Assembly: GCF_003710805.1 (NCBI RefSeq)
Contig: NZ_RHHB01000011.1
Location: 19,819 to 83,818, forward strand
Reading direction: 5' to 3'
Length of the DNA: 64,000 nucleotides
Source: Agromyces tardus
Lineage (GTDB): Bacteria; Actinomycetota; Actinomycetes; Actinomycetales; Microbacteriaceae
The notes beneath the pieces were generated by a model. The model was not told the origin of the DNA, did not search any database, and saw nothing but the letters and a program-made list of their open reading frames with translations. Below, piece after piece: positions 38,879-49,621 of the stretch; position 1 is the first letter of the stretch; every line of letters begins with the position of its first letter. A program made the position numbers and the translations under genes.

Positions 38879-39967
38879 TCACCCCGCGAGCGGGGGCAGG
38901 TAGCCCGCCTCGACCGTTCGGAGGAAGTCCCAGGTGTCGAGTTCGGGTGCGTCGACGTGCATGCGCCAGCTCCAGTACGTCCACGCGACGGCCGGCTCGA
39001 AGGCCGCCAGGTGGGCGGTCGCGATGGTGCGGTTGTAGGTCCGGCGCTCGTCGTCCGGCATCCCCGCGAGGGCCGCCTGCTTCGTGTCGAGGCACCACTC
39101 GCCCACGAGCACGGGGAAGTGCTGCGACGCCTCGGCGAGGGTGTCGCCGAAGGTCCGGGCGATGTACTCGAGGTAGCCGTCGAGGTCGCGCTGGCCGGCC
39201 ATCATGACGTACATGTGGGTGTCGACGGCGAAGTTCTCGAACTCCCCCGAATCGAGCATGCCGAACCACTCCCGCATGCGGAACCCGTCGTGGAACACGA
39301 CGCGCGCCCCGGGGGCGACGGCGCGGATGCGGCGGTAGGCGTCGCGGTAGAAGCCCGCCAGGAACTCGGTCGGAACACCCTCGGAGCCCGCTGCCCGCGC
39401 CGGATCGACCGCCGGGTAGCGCTTCGGCACGTCGAGCAGCGCCCAGAGGTCCGGGGAGATCGGCTCGTTCAGCACCTCGATGCCCCACAGCTCCGGCCGT
39501 GCGCCGTATCGCGCGGCGAGGCGCTCGAGCACGGTGAGGGCGAACTCGACGTGCTCGGGCTCCTGATGGAATCGGCACACCCCGCACACGCCGCCGTTGT
39601 CGAACCCGTTCTGGCTCTCAGGCACCGTGTGGAGGTCGAGCAGGATCCGCATGCCGTACCGGGCCGCCCAGCCGAACGCGCGGTCGAGGTAGTCCACGCA
39701 GCCGAGGAACGGCGGCACGTCGCCGAACACGAAGTAGGGGACGGGCAACCGGAGCAGCCGCACGCCGCGGGCGGCGAGGTACGCGAAGTCGCGGCCGGTC
39801 ACCCAGCTGTCGCGGTGCACCGTGAAGCGCTCCCGGCGGCTGACGTCGTCGAGCCCGTGCGTGAGGTACCACTCGTCCTCCGCGTCGGTGCCGGTGAAGA
39901 GCTCGGGCGCCATCCACTTCTCGAGGACGAGCCAGTTGCCGAGGTTCACGCCGATCATCTGGGTCAT
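38879..39967 (-). CDS. Glycoside hydrolase family 5-like protein
   Basis: The 362-residue TIM-barrel enzyme has the GH5 acid/base Glu 168 in WGIEVLNEPIS, the nucleophile Glu 290 in FPVLVGEWCLD, and HTVPESQNGFDNGG. The opening GVNLGNWLVLEKWM resembles exo-beta-1,3-glucanases of GH5 subfamily 9. No signal peptide is visible, so it is probably cytosolic. Its ATG overlaps the mscS stop by 4 bp, placing it in the LuxR-regulated operon. Substrate uncertain. Confidence 0.85.
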   Translation of the reverse strand: MTQMIGVNLGNWLVLEKWMAPELFTGTDAEDEWYLTHGLDDVSRRERFTVHRDSWVTGRDFAYLAARGVRLLRLPVPYFVFGDVPPFLGCVDYLDRAFGWAARYGMRILLDLHTVPESQNGFDNGGVCGVCRFHQEPEHVEFALTVLERLAARYGARPELWGIEVLNEPISPDLWALLDVPKRYPAVDPARAAGSEGVPTEFLAGFYRDAYRRIRAVAPGARVVFHDGFRMREWFGMLDSGEFENFAVDTHMYVMMAGQRDLDGYLEYIARTFGDTLAEASQHFPVLVGEWCLDTKQAALAGMPDDERRTYNRTIATAHLAAFEPAVAWTYWSWRMHVDAPELDTWDFLRTVEAGYLPPLAG

Positions 39968-41025
39968 GTCGGTCCCTTCTGCGACATCGGATGGGGCTGG
40001 GCCTGCTCGAGGCGGGCGCGCGGCAGCACGTCCTCCTGCTGCGCGGTGAGGAACGCGGCCAGCGCCTCGCGCACCTCGAACTTGAGCTCCTCCACCGCGT
40101 CGCTCGCGGCGCTGAACTGCGCGAGCAGCACGATGCCGTCGGGCACGGTGTCGCCCACGCGGAGCTCGACCACCCGCCCGTCCCACAGCGGCGACGCCGA
40201 CAGCACCCGCGTGAGCTCGTCGCGCACCGCGGCGACCGGCACGCGCCACGCTGCGGTGATGCGCACCTCGCCGATCGCGGTGTTGCCCGAGTGCGACCAG
40301 TTCTCGAACGGCGTCGTGGTGAAGTAGGTGCACGGCAGGATCAGCCGGGTCTCGTTCCAGATCTGCACGACGATGTACGTCAGGGTGATCTCCTCGATCC
40401 GCCCCTGGCGCCCCTCGACCACGACGATGTCCCCGACGCGGATGCCGTCGGTGAACGCGATCTGGATGCCGGCGAAGATGTTGGCGAGGCTCGTCTGGGC
40501 GGCGAGGCCCGCGATGATCGAGAGGATGCCGGCGGAGGCGAGCACCGTCACGCCGACGGCCCGCACGCTCGGGAAGGTCCACAGCGTCGCCCCCACCGCG
40601 AGCGTCGCCACGGCCGCGATCGCCACGCGCTGGATGAGCGCGATCTTCGTGCGCAGGTGCCGCGAACGCTCGTCGCGCAGGCCGGTGTCGGGATGCTTCG
40701 CGAGTGCCGCCTTCGCGGCCGTGCGGATCAGCACGATGGCGAGCCATGCGACGGCCCAGATCTGCGCGATGGACAGGAGGTGCGCGAGTCCCGATGCCCA
40801 CCGCCGGTCGATCTCCGCGACCCACGGCTCGATCGCCGACAGCACGATCACGGCAACGACGGGCGATTGCCAGAGCCGCCCCGAGAGCACCGTCACGTTC
40901 CAGCGGCGGGCGACGCGGCGCAGCACCATGACGACGACGACGCCGGCGGCGAACGCGGCCGCGACCACGACGAGGGCCGCCACGAACAATTCGGATGCCG
41001 TGGCCCCGCTCAGGTCGATCGTCAT
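39964..41025 (-). CDS. MscS-family mechanosensitive channel
   Basis: The 353-residue membrane protein has about four to five N-terminal helices, the pore-lining TM3-like segment AGLAAQTSLANIFAGIQIAF, then GIRVGDIVVVEGRQGRIEEI and the soluble beta domain. Gly/Ala packing in TM3 is conserved. These channels release solutes in hypo-osmotic shock. It is the first gene of the mscS-GH5 pair. A 20-bp site 68 bp upstream of its ATG matches the site before the hydrolase operon at 43957. Confidence 0.88.
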   Translation of the reverse strand: MTIDLSGATASELFVAALVVVAAAFAAGVVVVMVLRRVARRWNVTVLSGRLWQSPVVAVIVLSAIEPWVAEIDRRWASGLAHLLSIAQIWAVAWLAIVLIRTAAKAALAKHPDTGLRDERSRHLRTKIALIQRVAIAAVATLAVGATLWTFPSVRAVGVTVLASAGILSIIAGLAAQTSLANIFAGIQIAFTDGIRVGDIVVVEGRQGRIEEITLTYIVVQIWNETRLILPCTYFTTTPFENWSHSGNTAIGEVRITAAWRVPVAAVRDELTRVLSASPLWDGRVVELRVGDTVPDGIVLLAQFSAASDAVEELKFEVREALAAFLTAQQEDVLPRARLEQAQPHPMSQKGPT

Positions 41026-41093
41026 CGTGATCCGTCGCTTCCGGTCAGCACGAGGGCTCGTCCTCGACGGTAGGCACGTCGATCGCCCGCGTG

Positions 41094-41113
41094 AATCACG
41101 CGAACGCGTAGTC
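41094..41113 (-). promoter_or_regulatory. LuxR-regulon operator before mscS
   Basis: The minus strand reads GACTACGCGTTCGCGTGATT, identical except for one base to the site at 43957-43976. It lies 68 bp ahead of the mscS start, and a TACCGT -10-like hexamer follows 22 nt later. It overlaps the end of the LuxR-type gene. Confidence 0.7.
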
Positions 41114-41114
41114 C

Positions 41115-43898
41115 TCAGTTCTGGTCGGACGCCGCCTGCAGGCCGAGATCGCGATGGGGATGCCGCTCGGCCTCGCGTTCGGCGAGGGCGAGGTGGAGGC
41201 GACTGCGCGAGGCGATCCCGAGCTTCCGGAACGCCTTGCGCAGGTGGTAGTCGACGGTGCTCGCGCTGAGGTGCAGCCGCGTGGCGATGTCGGCGTTCGA
41301 GAGGCCCTCGCTCGCGAGACGCGCGACCGCGGCCTCCTGCGACGACAGTTCGTCGTGGCGCCTGTCGACGGCGGCGTGGCCACGTCCGAGGGCGGCGATC
41401 TCGGCTCGCGCGCGCTCCGCGAATCCGCGCGCACCCATCGCGGTGAATGCCGCGAGCGACTCCTCCAGCACCACCCGGGCCTCGGCGCGTCGGCGCTGGC
41501 GGCGGAGCCATTCGCCGTGCAGGAGCTGCGCCCGGGCCACCTCGGCGCCGAGGCCGGTCCGGCGCAGGTGCTCGACGGACTCCCGGTGCAGCCGCTCGGC
41601 GTCGGTCGGATCCGTCGCGAGCAGCGCGGCGGCCCGCGCCTCGACACCGCGTGCCCAGTCGGTGCCGGCGGCCCGGGTCGACACGGCGAGCCGCTCGAAC
41701 GCGTCCGCTGCGGTGCGTCGCTCGCCGGTGCGCACCGCGGCCTCGACCAGTTCGACCAGCCCCCACGTCGCGTACACGATCGCCACAGGATAACGGGCGG
41801 CGGAGTCGGCATGCCGCACCGCCTCGTCGTAGCGTGCGTTCGCGACGGCGTGGAGCGCGCGTGCCCAGTGGACGAGCGGGAAGCCCATCCCCTCGCCGCG
41901 GGCGGCGCAGTCGGCGAGCGCCCGGGCGAACAACTGCTCGCCGTCGGGTGCCCCCGCCCATGCCGCCACCGCCACGATCCCGTACGGCGCGGGAGGGATG
42001 GCGATGCTGTTCCAGATCTCGACGGCCTCGTCCGCGAGGTCGCGCGCTCCGGCCCCGTCGCCGCGGAGCAGCACGAGGGCGACCTCCGTCGTCAGTGACG
42101 CTGCGAGCGCCGTGAGCGCGCCCGCCGCTCGCGCGATGGTGGCGCCCTCGGCGACGAACTCGCCCCATCGACGTTCGTCCCAGGCGATCGCGGCCAGGCG
42201 CCCGGCGACCCACAGCCATCGGGCGCGATCGCCGGGGTCGTCGGAATCCGAGAGCCGCCGGAGATGCCCCGTGAGCAGGGGGAGGCTCGATCGGGGACGC
42301 TCGAGGGCCATCGCGAGGATCACCTCGAACAGCTGGTCGATGACCCGGTCCGCCCCCTCCGGTGCACCGGGGGCGGATGCGGCCCGCACCGCGACCTCGC
42401 GGATGCCGTCGCCGTGCTCGCCCGGTGCGGCGACCGTCGCCGCGGACAGCGCCTCGAGGTAGGCCTCGCGCGACGCCGGAGGATCCGTGTCCGCAAGCAC
42501 CTCCGCCGCGGCGAGGAAGAACGCGACGGACCGCTCACTGCGCTCGAGGGTGAGCAGGAGCCGACCGCGGACCAGGTCGATCCGGGCTCGGGTGTCGGGG
42601 TCGGCCGCGTGGTCGTGGGCCGCCTCCAGGACCCGCAGGGCCCGCGGCTGGTCGCCGGCGAGCTCGAGCGCACCGGCCGCCGCCAACGCGCAGCGGGCGC
42701 GCGTCTCGGGGGCTTCCGCGAGCTCGGCGGCGCGCTCGTAGAACGCTGCCGCCGCGAGGAAGCCGCCCCGCGCCCCCGCTCGGCTCGCGGCATGCTCGAG
42801 CGACGCGGCCACCGCTTCCGACGGCCCGAAGGTGCCGAGCGCCCGGTGCCAGGCCCTGCGATCGGGGTCGCGCTGGCGGTCGGTCGCCTCGGCGAGCGCC
42901 GCGTGCACCCGCCGACGCAGCTCGGGGTCCGCATCCTGGTAGACGCCCGAGCGCACGAGCGGATGCTCGAACGTGATCCGACCGCCCACCCGCACCAGTC
43001 CGGCCGCCTCGGCCGGGACGAGGTCGTCGAGCGCGACGCCGAGCCGCGACGCTGCGCGCGCGACCAGTCTCGGATCGCCGGTGGGGTCGGCCGCGGCGAG
43101 CAGCAGGAGCAACGACGTGCGCTCGGGCAGGTGGGCGCTGCGGCTCGCGAACGCGCCCTCCAGGCGGTTGAGGACGGGCAGCGAGGGGTCGGCGACGCGC
43201 GTCGGGACGCCCGCTTCGATCTGCGCACTCGCCCTCGCGGACTCGCGGATCAGCAGCGGGTTGCCGTGGGCTTCCTCGAGGACGCGAGCCGCGATCGCGC
43301 CGTCGAGCGGGCGCGGCACGACGGAGCGCAGGAACGCCTCCGCGGCGGCGTCGTCGAGCCCCGAGACGAGGAGCAGCGGCGTGGCATCGAGGTGGGCGAC
43401 GTCGACCCCGAGTCGCTTGGCGAAGAGCATGGCCACCGGCAGGTGCTCCACGCGGCGGGCGACGAACCCCAGTGCCTGCACGGTCGACCCGTCGAGCCAG
43501 TGCACGTCGTCGACGGCGCAGAGCAGCGGCTGGTCGCGCGAGGCCTCGGCGAACAGGCCGAGCAGCGCGAGCCCCACGAGGTACGGCCGCGGCGGCGGGT
43601 CGTCGGCGAGGCCGAGGGCCACGCGAAGGGCACGCGCCTGGGGCTCAGGAAGCCGATCGGAGTGGTCGGGCAGTGCGCCGAACAGCTGTTGGAGGCCCGC
43701 GAAGGGCAGCTCCCGCTCGGCCTGGACGCCGATTCCGGTCACCGTGCGGAACCCGTCGGCCGAGCGGATCGCGTGGTCGAGCAATGCCGTCTTGCCGATG
43801 CCGGGCTCGCCCTCGATCACGAGGGCCGTTCCGCGGCCGGCGCGGGCGACGTCGAGCACCCTGTCGAGCGCTGCCAGCTCGCGTGCCCGACCGAACAT
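41115..43898 (-). CDS. LuxR family regulator, LAL type (AAA ATPase + HTH)
   Basis: This 927-residue protein begins with an ATPase domain (FGRARELAALDRVLDVARAG, Walker A EGEPGIGKTALLDHAI, Walker B-like LLCAVDDVHWLDGSTVQ). A long helical middle follows, then a C-terminal LuxR HTH (SSQEAAVARLASEGLSNADI, STVDYHLRKAFRKLGI). LAL regulators bind an inducer and ATP and activate promoters. I chose ATG 43898, where the ATPase domain starts; a TTG at 43955 would add 19 residues. It is flanked by two matching promoter sites that point away from it. Confidence 0.9.
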   Translation of the reverse strand: MFGRARELAALDRVLDVARAGRGTALVIEGEPGIGKTALLDHAIRSADGFRTVTGIGVQAERELPFAGLQQLFGALPDHSDRLPEPQARALRVALGLADDPPPRPYLVGLALLGLFAEASRDQPLLCAVDDVHWLDGSTVQALGFVARRVEHLPVAMLFAKRLGVDVAHLDATPLLLVSGLDDAAAEAFLRSVVPRPLDGAIAARVLEEAHGNPLLIRESARASAQIEAGVPTRVADPSLPVLNRLEGAFASRSAHLPERTSLLLLLAAADPTGDPRLVARAASRLGVALDDLVPAEAAGLVRVGGRITFEHPLVRSGVYQDADPELRRRVHAALAEATDRQRDPDRRAWHRALGTFGPSEAVAASLEHAASRAGARGGFLAAAAFYERAAELAEAPETRARCALAAAGALELAGDQPRALRVLEAAHDHAADPDTRARIDLVRGRLLLTLERSERSVAFFLAAAEVLADTDPPASREAYLEALSAATVAAPGEHGDGIREVAVRAASAPGAPEGADRVIDQLFEVILAMALERPRSSLPLLTGHLRRLSDSDDPGDRARWLWVAGRLAAIAWDERRWGEFVAEGATIARAAGALTALAASLTTEVALVLLRGDGAGARDLADEAVEIWNSIAIPPAPYGIVAVAAWAGAPDGEQLFARALADCAARGEGMGFPLVHWARALHAVANARYDEAVRHADSAARYPVAIVYATWGLVELVEAAVRTGERRTAADAFERLAVSTRAAGTDWARGVEARAAALLATDPTDAERLHRESVEHLRRTGLGAEVARAQLLHGEWLRRQRRRAEARVVLEESLAAFTAMGARGFAERARAEIAALGRGHAAVDRRHDELSSQEAAVARLASEGLSNADIATRLHLSASTVDYHLRKAFRKLGIASRSRLHLALAEREAERHPHRDLGLQAASDQN

Positions 43899-43956
43899 GC
43901 GCGACACCCCCCGGAGCCGAGAGACCGAGTCCCACGCGCGCGGCCCCTCGGGCAAA

Positions 43957-43976
43957 GACTACGCGTTCTCGTGATT
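43957..43976 (+). promoter_or_regulatory. LuxR-regulon operator before the hydrolase operon
   Basis: GACTACGCGTTCTCGTGATT lies 67 bp ahead of the hydrolase ATG and 58 bp before the regulator's ATG. It shares 19 of 20 bases with the site at 41094. A TAGCGT -10-like hexamer follows 20 nt later, so an activator bound here would touch RNA polymerase. Confidence 0.7.
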
Positions 43977-44043
43977 TGCCGGTGTGATCCGGCACCTAGC
44001 GTGGGCCCCGACATGACCGAGTCGCCCGGGAGGTGATCGCCCG

Positions 44044-45060
44044 ATGCCGATGTGGCTGCCTGACATCCTCGGCTCTCCGTTCGAACGGCTGGAACTGGAG
44101 CTCGCGCCCGATGTCGAGGGCCCGGTGAGCGCGACGCTCGTCAGGCGCACGAGGGACGAGGTCATCGACGGACCGGGTGTGTTCGACGTGCTCTACGTGC
44201 ACGGCTGGTCCGACTACTTCTTCCAGCGCGAGCTCGCCGAGTACTGGATCAGCCGCGGCGCGCGGTTCCACGCCCTCGACCTGCGCAAGTACGGGCGGAG
44301 CCTGCGGCCCCACCAGACTCCGGGCTACGTCGAGGATCTCGCCGTCTACGACGAGGACATCCGCGCCGCCCTCGACGTCGTGCGAGCCCGGTCGACCGTG
44401 CCGCTCGTGCTGATGGGCCACTCGACGGGAGGCCTCACGCTCAGCCTGTGGGTGTCGCGTCATCCGGATGCGGCCGACGGGCTCGTGCTCAACTCGCCGT
44501 GGCTCGAGCTGCAGACCCGAGCGGTCGGGCGCGCCCTGCTCGAACCGGTGGTCGGATTCGGTGCCGTCATGCATCCGCACTCCGAGTTCCCCGAGGTCGA
44601 CCTCGGCTTCTACAGCCGCACGGTGTCCGCCCGGCTCGACGGCGAGTGGGAGTACGACGACGCGTGGCGTCCCGAGCACGGCTTCCGTGCGAATCGCGGT
44701 TGGCTCAACGCCATCCTGCGGGGCCAGGCGGCGGTGGCGAAGGGCCTCGGCATCCGGATCCCGGCCCTCGTGCTGCTGTCGGCACGGAGCATGCTCCAGC
44801 CCATGTGGTCGGAGCAGATGCGATACGCGGACACCGCGATCGAGGTCGGCGGAGTCGCCCGTCGCGCCGCCGATCTCGGGCTGGACGTGTCGATCCGCAG
44901 GATCGACGGCGCCCTCCACGACGTGGCGCTGTCAGCCGCGCCGGTGCGCGCAATGGTGTGGGAGGCCATCGACCGATGGCTCCCGTCGGTCGTCGAGGCG
45001 GCCCCGCGTGCCGCGGCGCGGGATCGCGCCGCGGTGCTCGGCCTGCCGGGAACGGGGTGA
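44044..45060 (+). CDS. Alpha/beta hydrolase
   Basis: The 338-residue cytosolic hydrolase has VLYVHGWSDYFFQRELAE (oxyanion-hole loop), the nucleophile elbow GHSTGG with Ser 127, and a late histidine in GALHDVALS. It belongs to the lysophospholipase/monoacylglycerol lipase-like group. GGGAGG lies upstream of the ATG. It is first in an operon with a BASS transporter and a membrane lipase, so esters or lipids are probable substrates. Confidence 0.86.
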   Translation: MPMWLPDILGSPFERLELELAPDVEGPVSATLVRRTRDEVIDGPGVFDVLYVHGWSDYFFQRELAEYWISRGARFHALDLRKYGRSLRPHQTPGYVEDLAVYDEDIRAALDVVRARSTVPLVLMGHSTGGLTLSLWVSRHPDAADGLVLNSPWLELQTRAVGRALLEPVVGFGAVMHPHSEFPEVDLGFYSRTVSARLDGEWEYDDAWRPEHGFRANRGWLNAILRGQAAVAKGLGIRIPALVLLSARSMLQPMWSEQMRYADTAIEVGGVARRAADLGLDVSIRRIDGALHDVALSAAPVRAMVWEAIDRWLPSVVEAAPRAAARDRAAVLGLPGTG

Positions 45061-45063
45061 GCA

Positions 45064-45981
45064 GTGGACATCGTCACCGTGCTGTCGACGGTCCTGAAGG
45101 TGGCCGTCGCCCTGACGGTCTTCGGCTACGGCCTGTCGGCGAGGGCCGACGACATCCTCTTCGTGCTGCGACGGCCGCGCCTGCTGTTCGTCTCCGTCGT
45201 CGCGATGTTCGTCGTCATGCCGGTGATCGCGCTGGGGGCCCACGCGTACCTCGACTTCCCGCACGCGGCCGAGGTCGCCCTCGTCGTGATCGCCCTCACC
45301 CCGATCCCGGCTCTCCTGCCGCGCACCGAGATCGGCTCGGGCGGCCGGGCCCGCTACGCGTACGGGTTGGCGTTCGCGGTGGCCCTCCTCTCCCCCGTCG
45401 TCGTACCGGTGCTCTCCGACCTCATCGGCCGGCTCATGGACCGCCCGTTCGGCCTGTCGCCGTTCACGATCGCCGAGGCGATGCTGACGCAGATCCTCCT
45501 CCCGCTCGGCCTCGGCTGGCTCGTCGGCCGCATCTGGCCGGCGGCGGCGCAGCGCATCGGCGGCACGCTCGTGAACATCGCGAACATCGCGACGCTCGCG
45601 GCGCTCGTCGTGCTGCTCGTGCTCGTCTTCCCGGCGGTGCTCACCGCCCTGTCGCTCGTCACCCTGGCCGTGCTGCTCGCGTACACCGGCATCGGGCTCG
45701 CCGTCGGCCACGCGCTCGGCGGCCCCGACCGGGCGGACTCCGTGGTGCTCGCGATCGCCTGCGCGAACCGGAATCCCGGCCTCGCGATCGGCCTCGCGGC
45801 CGCCATCTTCCCCGCCGAGAGCTTCGCGGGGACCGTCATCCTCTACGCGCTCGTCTCGAACGTCGCGGTCACGCTCTACACGCGCTGGCAGCGACGCCAC
45901 GCAGTCGACCGAGGGGACGACGTCGTCCCGCGAACCGCATCGACGACGACGCCGATGCGGCCCACTGAGGAGGAGACATGA
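45064..45981 (+). CDS. BASS family (bile acid/anion:Na+ symporter-like) transporter
   Basis: The 305-residue membrane protein has nine to ten helices and the BASS-type ACANRNPGLAIGLAAAIFP segment near the end. Start is GTG, 3 bp after the hydrolase stop, and its TGA overlaps the lipase ATG. The family moves organic anions with sodium; here it could move an acid freed by one of the neighbouring hydrolases. Confidence 0.78.
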   Translation: MDIVTVLSTVLKVAVALTVFGYGLSARADDILFVLRRPRLLFVSVVAMFVVMPVIALGAHAYLDFPHAAEVALVVIALTPIPALLPRTEIGSGGRARYAYGLAFAVALLSPVVVPVLSDLIGRLMDRPFGLSPFTIAEAMLTQILLPLGLGWLVGRIWPAAAQRIGGTLVNIANIATLAALVVLLVLVFPAVLTALSLVTLAVLLAYTGIGLAVGHALGGPDRADSVVLAIACANRNPGLAIGLAAAIFPAESFAGTVILYALVSNVAVTLYTRWQRRHAVDRGDDVVPRTASTTTPMRPTEEET

Positions 45982-47765
45982 CGGAGCGCACGACGATCGG
46001 CTCATGGTTCGCACGGCTGCCACGGTGGCTTCGGGCGGTGATCGGGCTGGCGTCGGTGGCGCTCGGCATCGCGATCGTGTTCCGTCCGACGACGTCGCTG
46101 GGGCTGCTCGCCATCCTCATCGGCCTCGGCCTCATCCTGAGCGGCGTGCTCGAGCTCGTGGGCGGGGGCGATGGCGACGACGACGAACGGACACCGCCGT
46201 GGCGCATCGTCACCGCCGTGCTGTGGATCGTCGGCGGTGCGTTCGTGCTCTTCTTCCCCGGGCTCACCGTGCGGATGGTCGCCCTCGTCGTCGCGATCGC
46301 GCTGATCGTCAACGGCGTGCTCTCGGTGATCTCCGCGTTCCGCCGGGGCCGGACCCTCGACGCACGCGTCGCGGCCGCCCTGCTCGGCGTCGCCGGCGTG
46401 GCGTTCGGGCTCCTCGCGCTCCTCTGGCCCGACATCACCCTGCTCGTGGTCGCCGTGGTGTTCGGCGCGCGGCTGATCGTCGTCGGCCTGCTCGAGCTCT
46501 GGCGGGCCATCCGCGGAACCACCCGGACACGAGAGCGCGGTGCTCCGTCGACGCTCGGCCGCTGGGCGAAGACGATCGCGGCCGTCGTGGCCCTGCTGCT
46601 CGCGATCGCGGCGGGTTCGGTCAGCGCGTCGCTGCGCGGCGGAACCCCGGTCGTCGACGACTTCTACGCGGCGCCGCGCGACGTGCCCGACGAGCCCGGG
46701 AAGCTGATCCGGGCGGAGTCCTTCACGCGTGGCGTGCCCGACAACGCGACAGCCTGGCGCATCCTGTACACGACGACCGGCGAGGACGGCGAGCCGGCGG
46801 TCGCGAGCGGGCTCGTCGTCGTGCCGAAGTCCGGCGACGGCGACTACCCCGTGATCGACTGGACGCACGGCACCACGGGCTTCGCGCAGCCGTGCGCGCC
46901 GTCGCTGCTCGAGGAGCCGTTCGAGTCGGGCGCCCTGTTCCTGCTGCCGGAGATCATCGACAACGGCTGGGCGCTCGTCGCGACCGACTACATCGGCCTC
47001 GGCACCGAGGGCCCGCACCCGTACCTGATCGGCGCGTCCACCGCGTACGCCGCCCTCGACGCCCGCCGCGCGGCATCCGATCTCGACGACGCCCGGCTCG
47101 GCGACCAGACCGTCGTGTGGGGGCATTCGCAGGGCGGCGGCGCGGCGCTGTGGACGGGCGCCCTCGCCGACTCGTACGCCCCCGACGTCGAGCTCGCCGG
47201 GGTGGCGGCGCTCGCGCCCGCCTCGAACCTCCCCGGCCTCATGGAGAACCTGCCCGAGGTGACCGGCGGGTCGCTCTTCGCCTCGTTCGTCGTCGGCGCG
47301 TACACCGCGATCTACCCGGATGTCACGTACCGCGAGTACGTGCGCCCGGGCGCCGAGGTCACGGTGCGCGAGATGGCCGACCGATGCCTCGCCGAACCCG
47401 GTGCGGCGGTGTCGGTGCTGAGCCTCCTCGGCCTGTCCCGCGACCCGGAGATCTTCTCGGAGGATCCCACGACCGGGCCGTTCGGCGACCGCCTCACCGA
47501 GAACATCCCGCCCGCGACCATCAGCGCACCGCTGCTGCTCGGGCAGGGCGCCGCCGACCAGCTCGTCGTGCCGCCGGCGCAGGACGCCTTCGTGGCGGAC
47601 TACTGCGACGCGGGGCAGCAGGTCGACTACCGCCTGTACGCCGGGCGCGACCACGTGCCGCTGGTCGAGCCCGACTCGCCCCTCGTGCCCGACCTCGTCG
47701 AGTGGACCACGGCGCGGCTCGCCGGCGAACCCGTCGAGCCGGGCTGCACCAGGACGGAGCGCTGA
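45978..47765 (+). CDS. HdeD-like membrane domain fused to secretory-type lipase
   Basis: The 595-residue protein has an N-terminal HdeD/DUF308-like membrane domain (residues 15-175, helices such as AVIGLASVALGIAIVF and VALVVAIALIVNGVLSVISA) and a further helix at 198-215. A secretory-lipase alpha/beta hydrolase follows from about residue 225 with WTHGTTGFAQPC, nucleophile Ser 384 in VVWGHSQGGGAAL and DHVPLVEP near the end. The lipase part is presumably outside the membrane. Such a fusion is uncommon. It ends the LuxR-regulated operon and is followed by a strong hairpin. Confidence 0.8.
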   Translation: MTERTTIGSWFARLPRWLRAVIGLASVALGIAIVFRPTTSLGLLAILIGLGLILSGVLELVGGGDGDDDERTPPWRIVTAVLWIVGGAFVLFFPGLTVRMVALVVAIALIVNGVLSVISAFRRGRTLDARVAAALLGVAGVAFGLLALLWPDITLLVVAVVFGARLIVVGLLELWRAIRGTTRTRERGAPSTLGRWAKTIAAVVALLLAIAAGSVSASLRGGTPVVDDFYAAPRDVPDEPGKLIRAESFTRGVPDNATAWRILYTTTGEDGEPAVASGLVVVPKSGDGDYPVIDWTHGTTGFAQPCAPSLLEEPFESGALFLLPEIIDNGWALVATDYIGLGTEGPHPYLIGASTAYAALDARRAASDLDDARLGDQTVVWGHSQGGGAALWTGALADSYAPDVELAGVAALAPASNLPGLMENLPEVTGGSLFASFVVGAYTAIYPDVTYREYVRPGAEVTVREMADRCLAEPGAAVSVLSLLGLSRDPEIFSEDPTTGPFGDRLTENIPPATISAPLLLGQGAADQLVVPPAQDAFVADYCDAGQQVDYRLYAGRDHVPLVEPDSPLVPDLVEWTTARLAGEPVEPGCTRTER

Positions 47766-47775
47766 GGCCGGAGTC

Positions 47776-47818
47776 GACTGCGTCGCAGCGCCGAGCTCCC
47801 GTGCGCTGCGTCGCAGTC
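47776..47818. terminator. Strong terminator hairpin
   Basis: GACTGCGTCGCAGCGC (47776-47791) and GCGCTGCGTCGCAGTC (47803-47818) form a 16-bp stem with one mismatch and an 11-nt loop, just after the lipase stop. Confidence 0.7.
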
Positions 47819-47841
47819 GGTCGTCGGCCGGCGCCCTCCCG

Positions 47842-47968: not shown

Positions 47969-49621
47969 ATGCCCACCGTCTCCGCGCACGTCGCCCGCAC
48001 CCTCACCGCCCACGTCGACCACGTCTTCGGCGTGATGGGCAACGGAAACGCCTGGTTCCTCGACGCCCTCGAGCGCGAGACGGATGCCGCGTTCGTCGCC
48101 GTCCGGCACGAGGTGGGCGGGGTCGTGGCGGCCGACGCCCACTTCCGCGCGTCGGGGCGGATCGCCGCCGCGACGGCCACGTACGGGGCCGGGTTCACGA
48201 ACACGCTCACGGGCCTCGCCGAGGCCGTGCAGGCGCGGGTGCCGCTCGTGCTCGTCGTCGGCGACGAGCCCACGTCGGGCCCGCGCCCGTGGGGCGTCGA
48301 CCAGGTCGCGCTCGCCTCGGCGGTGGGCGCCCGCACGTACACGGTCGGGCGAACGGATGCCGCGGCCACGACCGTCCTCGCGATCGAGCACGCCCTCGCG
48401 TACCGGGTGCCGACCGTGCTCGCGATCCCCTACGACGTGGCGTCGCACGAGGCGGGCGAGGTGCCCGAGCCCGTCGCGCTGCGGCTTCCCGCGCCGCTCG
48501 TGCCGGCCGGGGCGTTCGCCTCGCAGGTGGTCGCCGACCTCGCGCGGCGGCTCGCCGACGCGCAGCGACCGCTCCTGCTCGCCGGACGCGGCGCCTGGCT
48601 CGCGGGCGCCGGCGCCGCCCTCGGCGAGCTGGCCGAGCTGACGGGCGCGCTCACCGCGACGACCGCGCTCGGGCGCGGGATCTTCCCCGACCCCCGGTTC
48701 GACCTCGGCGTCGCGGGCGGCTTCGGCGCCGAGGCCGCCATGGAGCTCGTGCGGCAGGCCGACGTCGCCGTCGTCTTCGGCGCGTCGCTCAACCAGTTCA
48801 CGATGCGGTTCGGCGAGCTCTTCGCCCCGGGCGCGCACGTCGCGCAGGTCGACACGGCCGCGACCGCGACGCATCCGCACGTCGGCGGCTTCGTGCGCGG
48901 CGACGCGGCCGTGGTGGCACGCGACCTCGTGGGCCGGATCGGCGCCCTCGGCACTCGCGCATCGGGCTGGCGCGACCGGGTCGACGTCACGTCGTCGCTC
49001 CGGCACGACCCGGGCACGGACGTCGCCGACGACGGCCGCCTGGATCCGCGGTCGGTCGCCGCGCGGCTCGCCGAGCTGCTGCCCGGCGACCGCGTCGTCG
49101 TCTCCGACGGCGGGCACTTCATCGGCTGGGCGAACATGTACTGGCCCGTGGCCTCCCCCGATCGCATGGTCATGGTCGGCACCGCGTTCCAGTCGATCGG
49201 CCTCGGCTTCCCGAGCGTCGTCGGCGCGGCCGCGGCCCGGCCCGACGCCACCGTCGTGCTCACGACCGGCGACGGCGGGGGCCTCATGGCGCTGGCCGAC
49301 CTCGAGTCCGCCGTGCGCGTCGCCGGCGGACGCGGGATCGCGGTCGTCTGGAACGACGCCGCATACGGGGCCGAGGTGCACGTCTACGGCGAGCTCGGCC
49401 TCGCCCGCGAGCCGATGCGGATCCCGCAGGTGGGCTTCGCCGGCCTCGCGACGGCCGTCGGGGCCGAGGCCGTCGTCGTACGACGGCTCGCCGACCTCGA
49501 CCGCCTGGGCGCGTGGGCCGCCGAGCCCGCAGCCGAGCGGCGGTTCCTGCTGCTGGACTGCCGTGTCTCCGATCGCGTGGTGGCGCCGTTCCAGCGGGAG
49601 ATCCTGGCCGCGAACCGCTGA
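47969..49621 (+). CDS. Thiamine-diphosphate-dependent enzyme (acetolactate synthase-like)
   Basis: The 550-residue protein has the three-domain ThDP layout. Its N-terminal domain carries the catalytic Glu in AVRHEVGGVVAADAHFRASG, and its C-terminal cofactor domain carries TTGDGGGLMALADLE, about 25 residues, then WNDAAYGAEV. AAAGG is 7 nt before the ATG. The family includes acetolactate synthase, benzoylformate decarboxylase and indolepyruvate decarboxylase; I cannot choose among them. It has its own promoter and no obvious partner genes. Confidence 0.85.
   Translation: MPTVSAHVARTLTAHVDHVFGVMGNGNAWFLDALERETDAAFVAVRHEVGGVVAADAHFRASGRIAAATATYGAGFTNTLTGLAEAVQARVPLVLVVGDEPTSGPRPWGVDQVALASAVGARTYTVGRTDAAATTVLAIEHALAYRVPTVLAIPYDVASHEAGEVPEPVALRLPAPLVPAGAFASQVVADLARRLADAQRPLLLAGRGAWLAGAGAALGELAELTGALTATTALGRGIFPDPRFDLGVAGGFGAEAAMELVRQADVAVVFGASLNQFTMRFGELFAPGAHVAQVDTAATATHPHVGGFVRGDAAVVARDLVGRIGALGTRASGWRDRVDVTSSLRHDPGTDVADDGRLDPRSVAARLAELLPGDRVVVSDGGHFIGWANMYWPVASPDRMVMVGTAFQSIGLGFPSVVGAAAARPDATVVLTTGDGGGLMALADLESAVRVAGGRGIAVVWNDAAYGAEVHVYGELGLAREPMRIPQVGFAGLATAVGAEAVVVRRLADLDRLGAWAAEPAAERRFLLLDCRVSDRVVAPFQREILAANR

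Follow-up and report, generated by a model that had tools for sequence, protein, structure and literature searches.

The window analysed here, 64,000 nucleotides of the Agromyces tardus genome, contains a gene for a LuxR-type regulator (luxR) set between two nearly identical 20-nt elements. This arrangement raises the question of whether the elements are operators, which protein would bind them, and what binding would do to the two gene units that lead away on either side. The first-pass annotation had described a pair differing by one base, pointing outward from the regulator gene, standing at almost equal distances from the next start codons and followed by similar -10-like hexamers. Each part of this description held: the single-base difference, positions, orientation and spacing were reproduced, and a TAnnnT hexamer was found downstream of both elements (Table 1). 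The same arrangement occurs in Agromyces aurantiacus (G002) and Agromyces sp. NDB4Y10 (G042), and our DNA-level comparison covers these three species, which are related to one another. Across their six sites the consensus is GACTACGC[AG][AT]TC[CGT]CG[GT]GAT[GT]. Five of the six fit the dyad AYYACG-N6-CGTRRT, the hydrolase-side site of NDB4Y10 being off by one base, and a TASSGT hexamer (TAGCGT, TACCGT or TACGGT) lies 20-21 nt from the element at all six. In each of the three species, site 1 starts 1 nt past the stop codon of luxR.

Table 1. Features of the regulator locus, in window coordinates.
Feature	Position	Strand	Remarks
GH5 glycosidase, exo-beta-1,3-glucanase-like	38879..39967	-	362 aa; no TM-like segment
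MscS-type channel (mscS)	39964..41025	-	PF00924, 52.3 bits, cut-off 20.2
-10-like hexamer TACCGT	41067..41072	-	21 nt past site 1
Candidate operator site 1, GACTACGCGTTCGCGTGATT	41094..41113	-	68 nt upstream of mscS ATG (41025)
LAL (MalT-like) regulator, luxR-type	41115..43898	-	927 aa; AAA_16 ATPase and C-terminal LuxR HTH
TAGTCT, putative luxR -10 (hypothesis)	43956..43961	-	overlaps site 2; formed in 3/3 species
Candidate operator site 2, GACTACGCGTTCTCGTGATT	43957..43976	+	67 nt upstream of hydrolase ATG (44044)
-10-like hexamer TAGCGT	43997..44002	+	20 nt past site 2
Alpha/beta hydrolase	44044..45060	+	GHSTG
BASS/SBF-type transporter	45064..45981	+	SBF 53.7 bits, cut-off 24.3
Membrane DUF308 fused to secretory-lipase (LIP) domain	45978..47765	+	GHSQG at 382
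Strong hairpin directly 3' of lipase gene	47766..47830	+	-50.8 kcal/mol, z -6.9

Allowing up to three mismatches, the motif matched the window twice against 0.04 matches expected, and none of 100 shuffles contained two. The whole 4.06-Mb genome, searched in the same way, returned the two sites and nothing else, with no match for the reversed pattern. At up to two mismatches, the window's motif matched in six of 150 genomes, its own included. In A. tardus, A. aurantiacus and NDB4Y10 the matches form an oppositely oriented pair, 2.85-2.86 kb apart, that flanks the regulator gene; a single match, not accompanied by the hexamer, occurs in each of G006, G048 and G129. These lone matches look like chance, since the reversed control also gave one match each in three genomes (G060, G076, G110). 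The combined pattern ACTACGNNNTNNCGNGAT-N20..22-TANNGT had exactly six matches among the 60 Agromyces genomes of our genus sample, two in each carrier of a regulator ortholog and none in the 57 congeners lacking one, and its reversed control had none. Within a class sample of 394 genomes, drawn without G002 and G042, the A. tardus genome alone matched (0 of the 393 others). Because this pattern was derived from the six sites, it recovers those six by construction and the result lies in the absence of others; the search that started from the window's motif alone, with no more than two mismatches, is the less circular test of conservation. Shuffles and the counts in genome, genus and class rule out a chance repeat. 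Two ways in which the first-pass annotation thought that its proposal might fail, a motif scattered at random over the genome and a motif not kept at the promoters of relatives, are thus both contradicted, the same pair being present in both other carriers. In the three-species alignments, 17 and 18 of the 20 site columns are invariant, and outside the sites the two intergenic regions have 49 of 121 and 30 of 75 invariant columns (ungapped), that is, 40%. No other stretch of 20 columns is more conserved than the sites, although stretches displaced by a few columns equal them.

The gene set behind the sites is conserved along with them. A. aurantiacus keeps the full GH5-mscS-luxR-hydrolase-BASS-lipase set at 75-86% identity. 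In NDB4Y10 (65-83% identity) mscS is absent from the locus and the GH5 gene directly follows the site, and mscS was accordingly dropped as an obligatory member. The division into two units that had been proposed from the window is retained, with hydrolase, BASS and lipase genes together in all three carriers and GH5 behind the other site even where mscS is missing. None of the window neighbours tested (substrate-binding protein, TPP enzyme, MFS, TetR) was found in the corresponding stretch of either species. Homologs of the GH5 protein (E 1e-60) occur in the same three of 60 genomes as the regulator ortholog. Lipase homologs are found in seven of the 60, four of them without the regulator ortholog (G047, G004, G046, G036). 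The 14-19 kb of sequence examined at each of these four lipase loci contain no hydrolase or BASS homolog; near the G047 and G036 lipase homologs there is no site within three mismatches, and the G004 and G046 loci have one 3-mismatch match each, without the hexamer. In contrast, 129 of the 398 family genomes searched contain relatives of the hydrolase, and A. tardus itself has a 56%-identical paralog.

Two side observations concern these enzymes. The hydrolase paralog lies at G000:C45:48666-49697 (L104), close to a further, partial match that covers residues 4-74, and such relatives are widespread in the family. In G047, a congener without the regulator ortholog, two DUF308-lipase homologs stand close together (L099, 8007-14405), and in the first the reading frame appears to shift from one part to the other.

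What kind of protein does luxR encode? The AAA_16 domain scores 66.5 bits (cut-off 32.6), with a Walker A motif, GEPGIGKT, from residue 30, and the GerE HTH scores 49 bits (cut-off 23.5) at residues 850-901. Against the MalT equivalog model the protein reaches 30.3 bits, under the cut-off of 537. Its reading frame can be extended back to a TTG at 43955; the ATG at 43898 is the likelier start, with GGGGGTG ahead of it in three species. An ortholog was found in three of the 60 Agromyces genomes (E 1e-200). The reach of the regulator outside the genus was judged from a protein search, of which we considered the best 120 of 5343 homologs, together with the class-wide motif pattern. Among those best 120, 16 proteins (P0121-P0136) share at least 54% identity, and the next, P0137 from Marmoricola, has 49%. 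An organism name is attached to five of the 16, in each case Agromyces, and all 16 have the HTH string STVDYHLRK...KLGI.SR.RLH.AL. In four cases homologs of the regulator and of the lipase were found on contigs of the same size (3884057, 288896, 109987 and 10277 bases), a hint, though no proof, that the regulator-lipase linkage extends to these four contigs. A plasmid-borne regulator was considered and rejected, the plasmid collection giving no match at E 1e-80.

We think it probable that the two elements are operators by which the LAL regulator activates the mscS-GH5 and hydrolase-BASS-lipase promoters, as a local regulon. Linkage, co-occurrence, dyad symmetry and spacing all point to the LAL protein as the presumptive binder and activator. 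That it binds the sites but mainly represses, with a ligand releasing it, is unlikely. A regulator that covers a -35 region can stand in the way of polymerase, the putative luxR -10 shares bases with site 2, and a repressor-like effect of a LAL protein has been reported for SCO6993 in the available part of PMC9628970. However, the geometry of the elements is that of the Actinoplanes MalT operators, at which binding activates, and a MalT-like activator on two promoters is therefore the best reading. No consensus -35 was found either: a scan of 40980-44060 for sigma-70-like consensus promoters returned none, and since shuffles also yield none, the scan says little and weighs only slightly against repression.

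A second alternative, that another regulator encoded elsewhere binds the sites and the LAL gene is a mere neighbour or target, appears quite unlikely. The motif pair co-occurs with the LAL ortholog in all three carriers, no site with hexamer exists in the 57 non-carriers, there is no second regulator gene between the sites or within the two units, and the genome holds no further target site. In its favour, binding by the LAL protein is itself our deduction, and LAL paralogs lack the motif. The latter point comes from 31 loci around LAL genes encoding 36-43% identical proteins (L011-L014 and L020-L046, the second group spanning 1.5 kb per side), in which the full motif was absent at up to three mismatches, the best match having four (in L027). 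Enumeration of gapped dyads over the LAL upstream regions, with L041 and L042 excluded for incomplete alignment, gave nothing above five shuffles. A motif common to LAL regulators in general is thereby rejected, and the link between HTH and motif has no support from outside the locus. With a looser 14-base pattern, eight of the 31 loci (L012, L021, L025, L027, L034, L036, L038, L043) each had a single match at three mismatches, a raw count uncalibrated against chance.

The survey of LAL genes yielded some observations in their own right. A. tardus has a 43%-identical LAL paralog at G000:C56:44609-47329 (L048). Several congeners have two to five LAL paralogs each, and the motif is absent at up to three mismatches from those loci that were scanned. 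Three related LAL genes (L039, L040, L046) have the block GTGAAAACGCTCTCTGGACG in common, some 60-70 nt upstream of the start, perhaps the operator of another regulator. At L035 a perfect palindrome, GACTACGTAGTC, stands upstream of a LAL gene of another family and resembles the left half-site only.

Block and hexamer, both conserved at a nearly fixed distance, could, instead of serving an activator, form the promoter of an alternative sigma factor. We regard this as very unlikely: a spacing of 20-21 nt is long for -35 and -10 elements, the block is dyad-symmetric, a two-promoter sigma regulon placed around a LAL gene in carriers only would be odd, and the cassette has no sigma factor gene. 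That the inverted pair is a recombination site flipping or moving the regulator gene is scarcely credible, for although near-identical inverted copies flank a single gene and the tested flanking genes vary between species, the direction of luxR with respect to the two units does not change among the three carriers, conservation of the sites extends to their hexamers, and none of the cassette's six genes encodes a recombinase.

With the LAL protein taken as the probable activator, we considered what its targets do. In the left unit, the mscS and GH5 genes overlap by 4 nt. The GH5 domain (PF00150) scores 40.6 bits against a cut-off of 23.5. The closest solved structure to the protein is the exo-beta-1,3-glucanase 6zb9, which we take to be from moose rumen; the similarity covers residues 4-358 of 362 (E 1.3e-97), and the protein has Glu at both positions mutated in the E167Q/E295Q variant of 6zb9/6zb8, so that the catalytic glutamates are aligned. 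A hairpin 3' of this unit is no better than shuffles (z 0.15). luxR points toward mscS and no terminator-like site was found separating them, so that transcription started at luxR could also extend through mscS-GH5. In the right unit, the transporter misses the NCBIfam bass model (51.1 vs 326.3), and the stretch aligned with EVGMQN of 3zux, which we take to be the sodium-site sequence of that structure, reads ACANRN; sodium coupling is therefore doubtful. The LIP domain (PF03583) of the lipase scores 85.4 bits, cut-off 23, and the protein resembles esterase 3h2g and lipase A 2veo. Its fusion to DUF308 is common, both domains being present in all of the best 120 of 1830 homologs. A literature lead on DUF308 was discarded, as it concerned DUF3089 instead. 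The hairpin directly behind the lipase gene is likely the end of the right-hand operon. Just outside the cassette, at 47969-49621, is a TPP enzyme of the acetolactate synthase/sulfoacetaldehyde acetyltransferase type, which scores below every curated cut-off shown.

A mechanism may be sketched from these parts. The regulator would oligomerise, as MalT does, once a small ligand and ATP are bound. If the hexamers start at -12, the 3' ends of the sites fall at about -33 to -34 and their centres near -43; the HTH domains would occupy the inverted repeat there and recruit RNA polymerase. The membrane-anchored lipase and the esterase, both predicted alpha/beta hydrolases, may cleave esters, the GH5 enzyme a beta-glucoside, and the BASS carrier may move an organic anion. 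The cassette would then dismantle a beta-glucosylated ester or glycolipid, our best guess at the substrate, with one of the products as inducer. The weakest step is negative autoregulation, in which site 2 would cover the -10 of luxR itself. The base preceding GACTACG at site 2 is A in all three species, so that the luxR strand reads TAGTCT; the corresponding base at site 1 is G in two species and C in the third, and TAGTCT is formed in none of the three. On this thin evidence, the overlap suggests that binding might limit luxR expression. As one picture, a MalT-like STAND regulator, so far recorded in Agromyces alone, would sense a product of a beta-glucosylated lipid or ester, drive a glycolipid-dismantling cassette from two promoters and turn down its own gene. 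The cassette, previously undescribed, would consist of a membrane-anchored DUF308-lipase, an esterase, a BASS carrier, an intracellular exo-beta-glucosidase and a relief channel. In this full form the picture is rather doubtful.

LAL regulators are common in actinobacteria and few of their operators are known; PMC3282765, in the part available, describes them as poorly studied. Our literature searches found no Microbacteriaceae LuxR regulon with a binding motif, and no Agromyces regulon was treated among the matches listed for LAL regulators. At this locus the operator, the promoter geometry and a complete, small set of targets can be deduced from sequence with a specificity close to unique, which makes it a clean minimal system for finding the ligand of a LAL protein. 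Five enzymes and transporters lacking a known joint purpose are tied into one testable unit.

Several known systems are comparable with the regulator. Like E. coli MalT, a typical STAND/LAL activator, it has an N-terminal NTPase with Walker A, a C-terminal LuxR HTH and a similar size; unlike E. coli MalT, which binds repeated GGA(T/G)GA boxes (as the box is given in the available text of PMC7567727), it has no such box in either 20-bp site. TpdR of Rhodococcus jostii TMP1, which activates a small catabolic operon, is another LAL protein of an actinobacterium, but the site proposed for it, in what is available of PMC6099782, is a 15-nt direct repeat, whereas the elements here are inverted repeats. 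The window's GH5 differs from 6zb9/6zb8 in that its predicted activity sits in a lipase/esterase regulon. The nearest parallel is MalT of Actinoplanes sp. SE50/110. According to the accessible part of PMC7567727, activation by this LuxR-family, MalT-like protein was shown by mutants, and its palindrome, TCATCC-N5-GGATGA, overlaps the -35, with 34.4 +/- 1.0 nt between its 3' end and the start site. The palindromic element here would likewise lie over the -35, at about 33-34 nt if the hexamer is at -12. In both cases the regulator gene is inside the controlled region, the region has no obvious pathway, and region and motif are conserved in relatives. The differences are the operator sequence, the extent (a large maltose-regulated region there, comprising about 40 genes and 17 start sites, against two sites and five genes here) and the ligand, which in Actinoplanes is known to depend on maltose. 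Judged from sequence, the locus looks like a real yet fairly ordinary small control circuit. Its novelty is the operator sequence and the combination of genes; the local LAL regulon itself is of a known kind.
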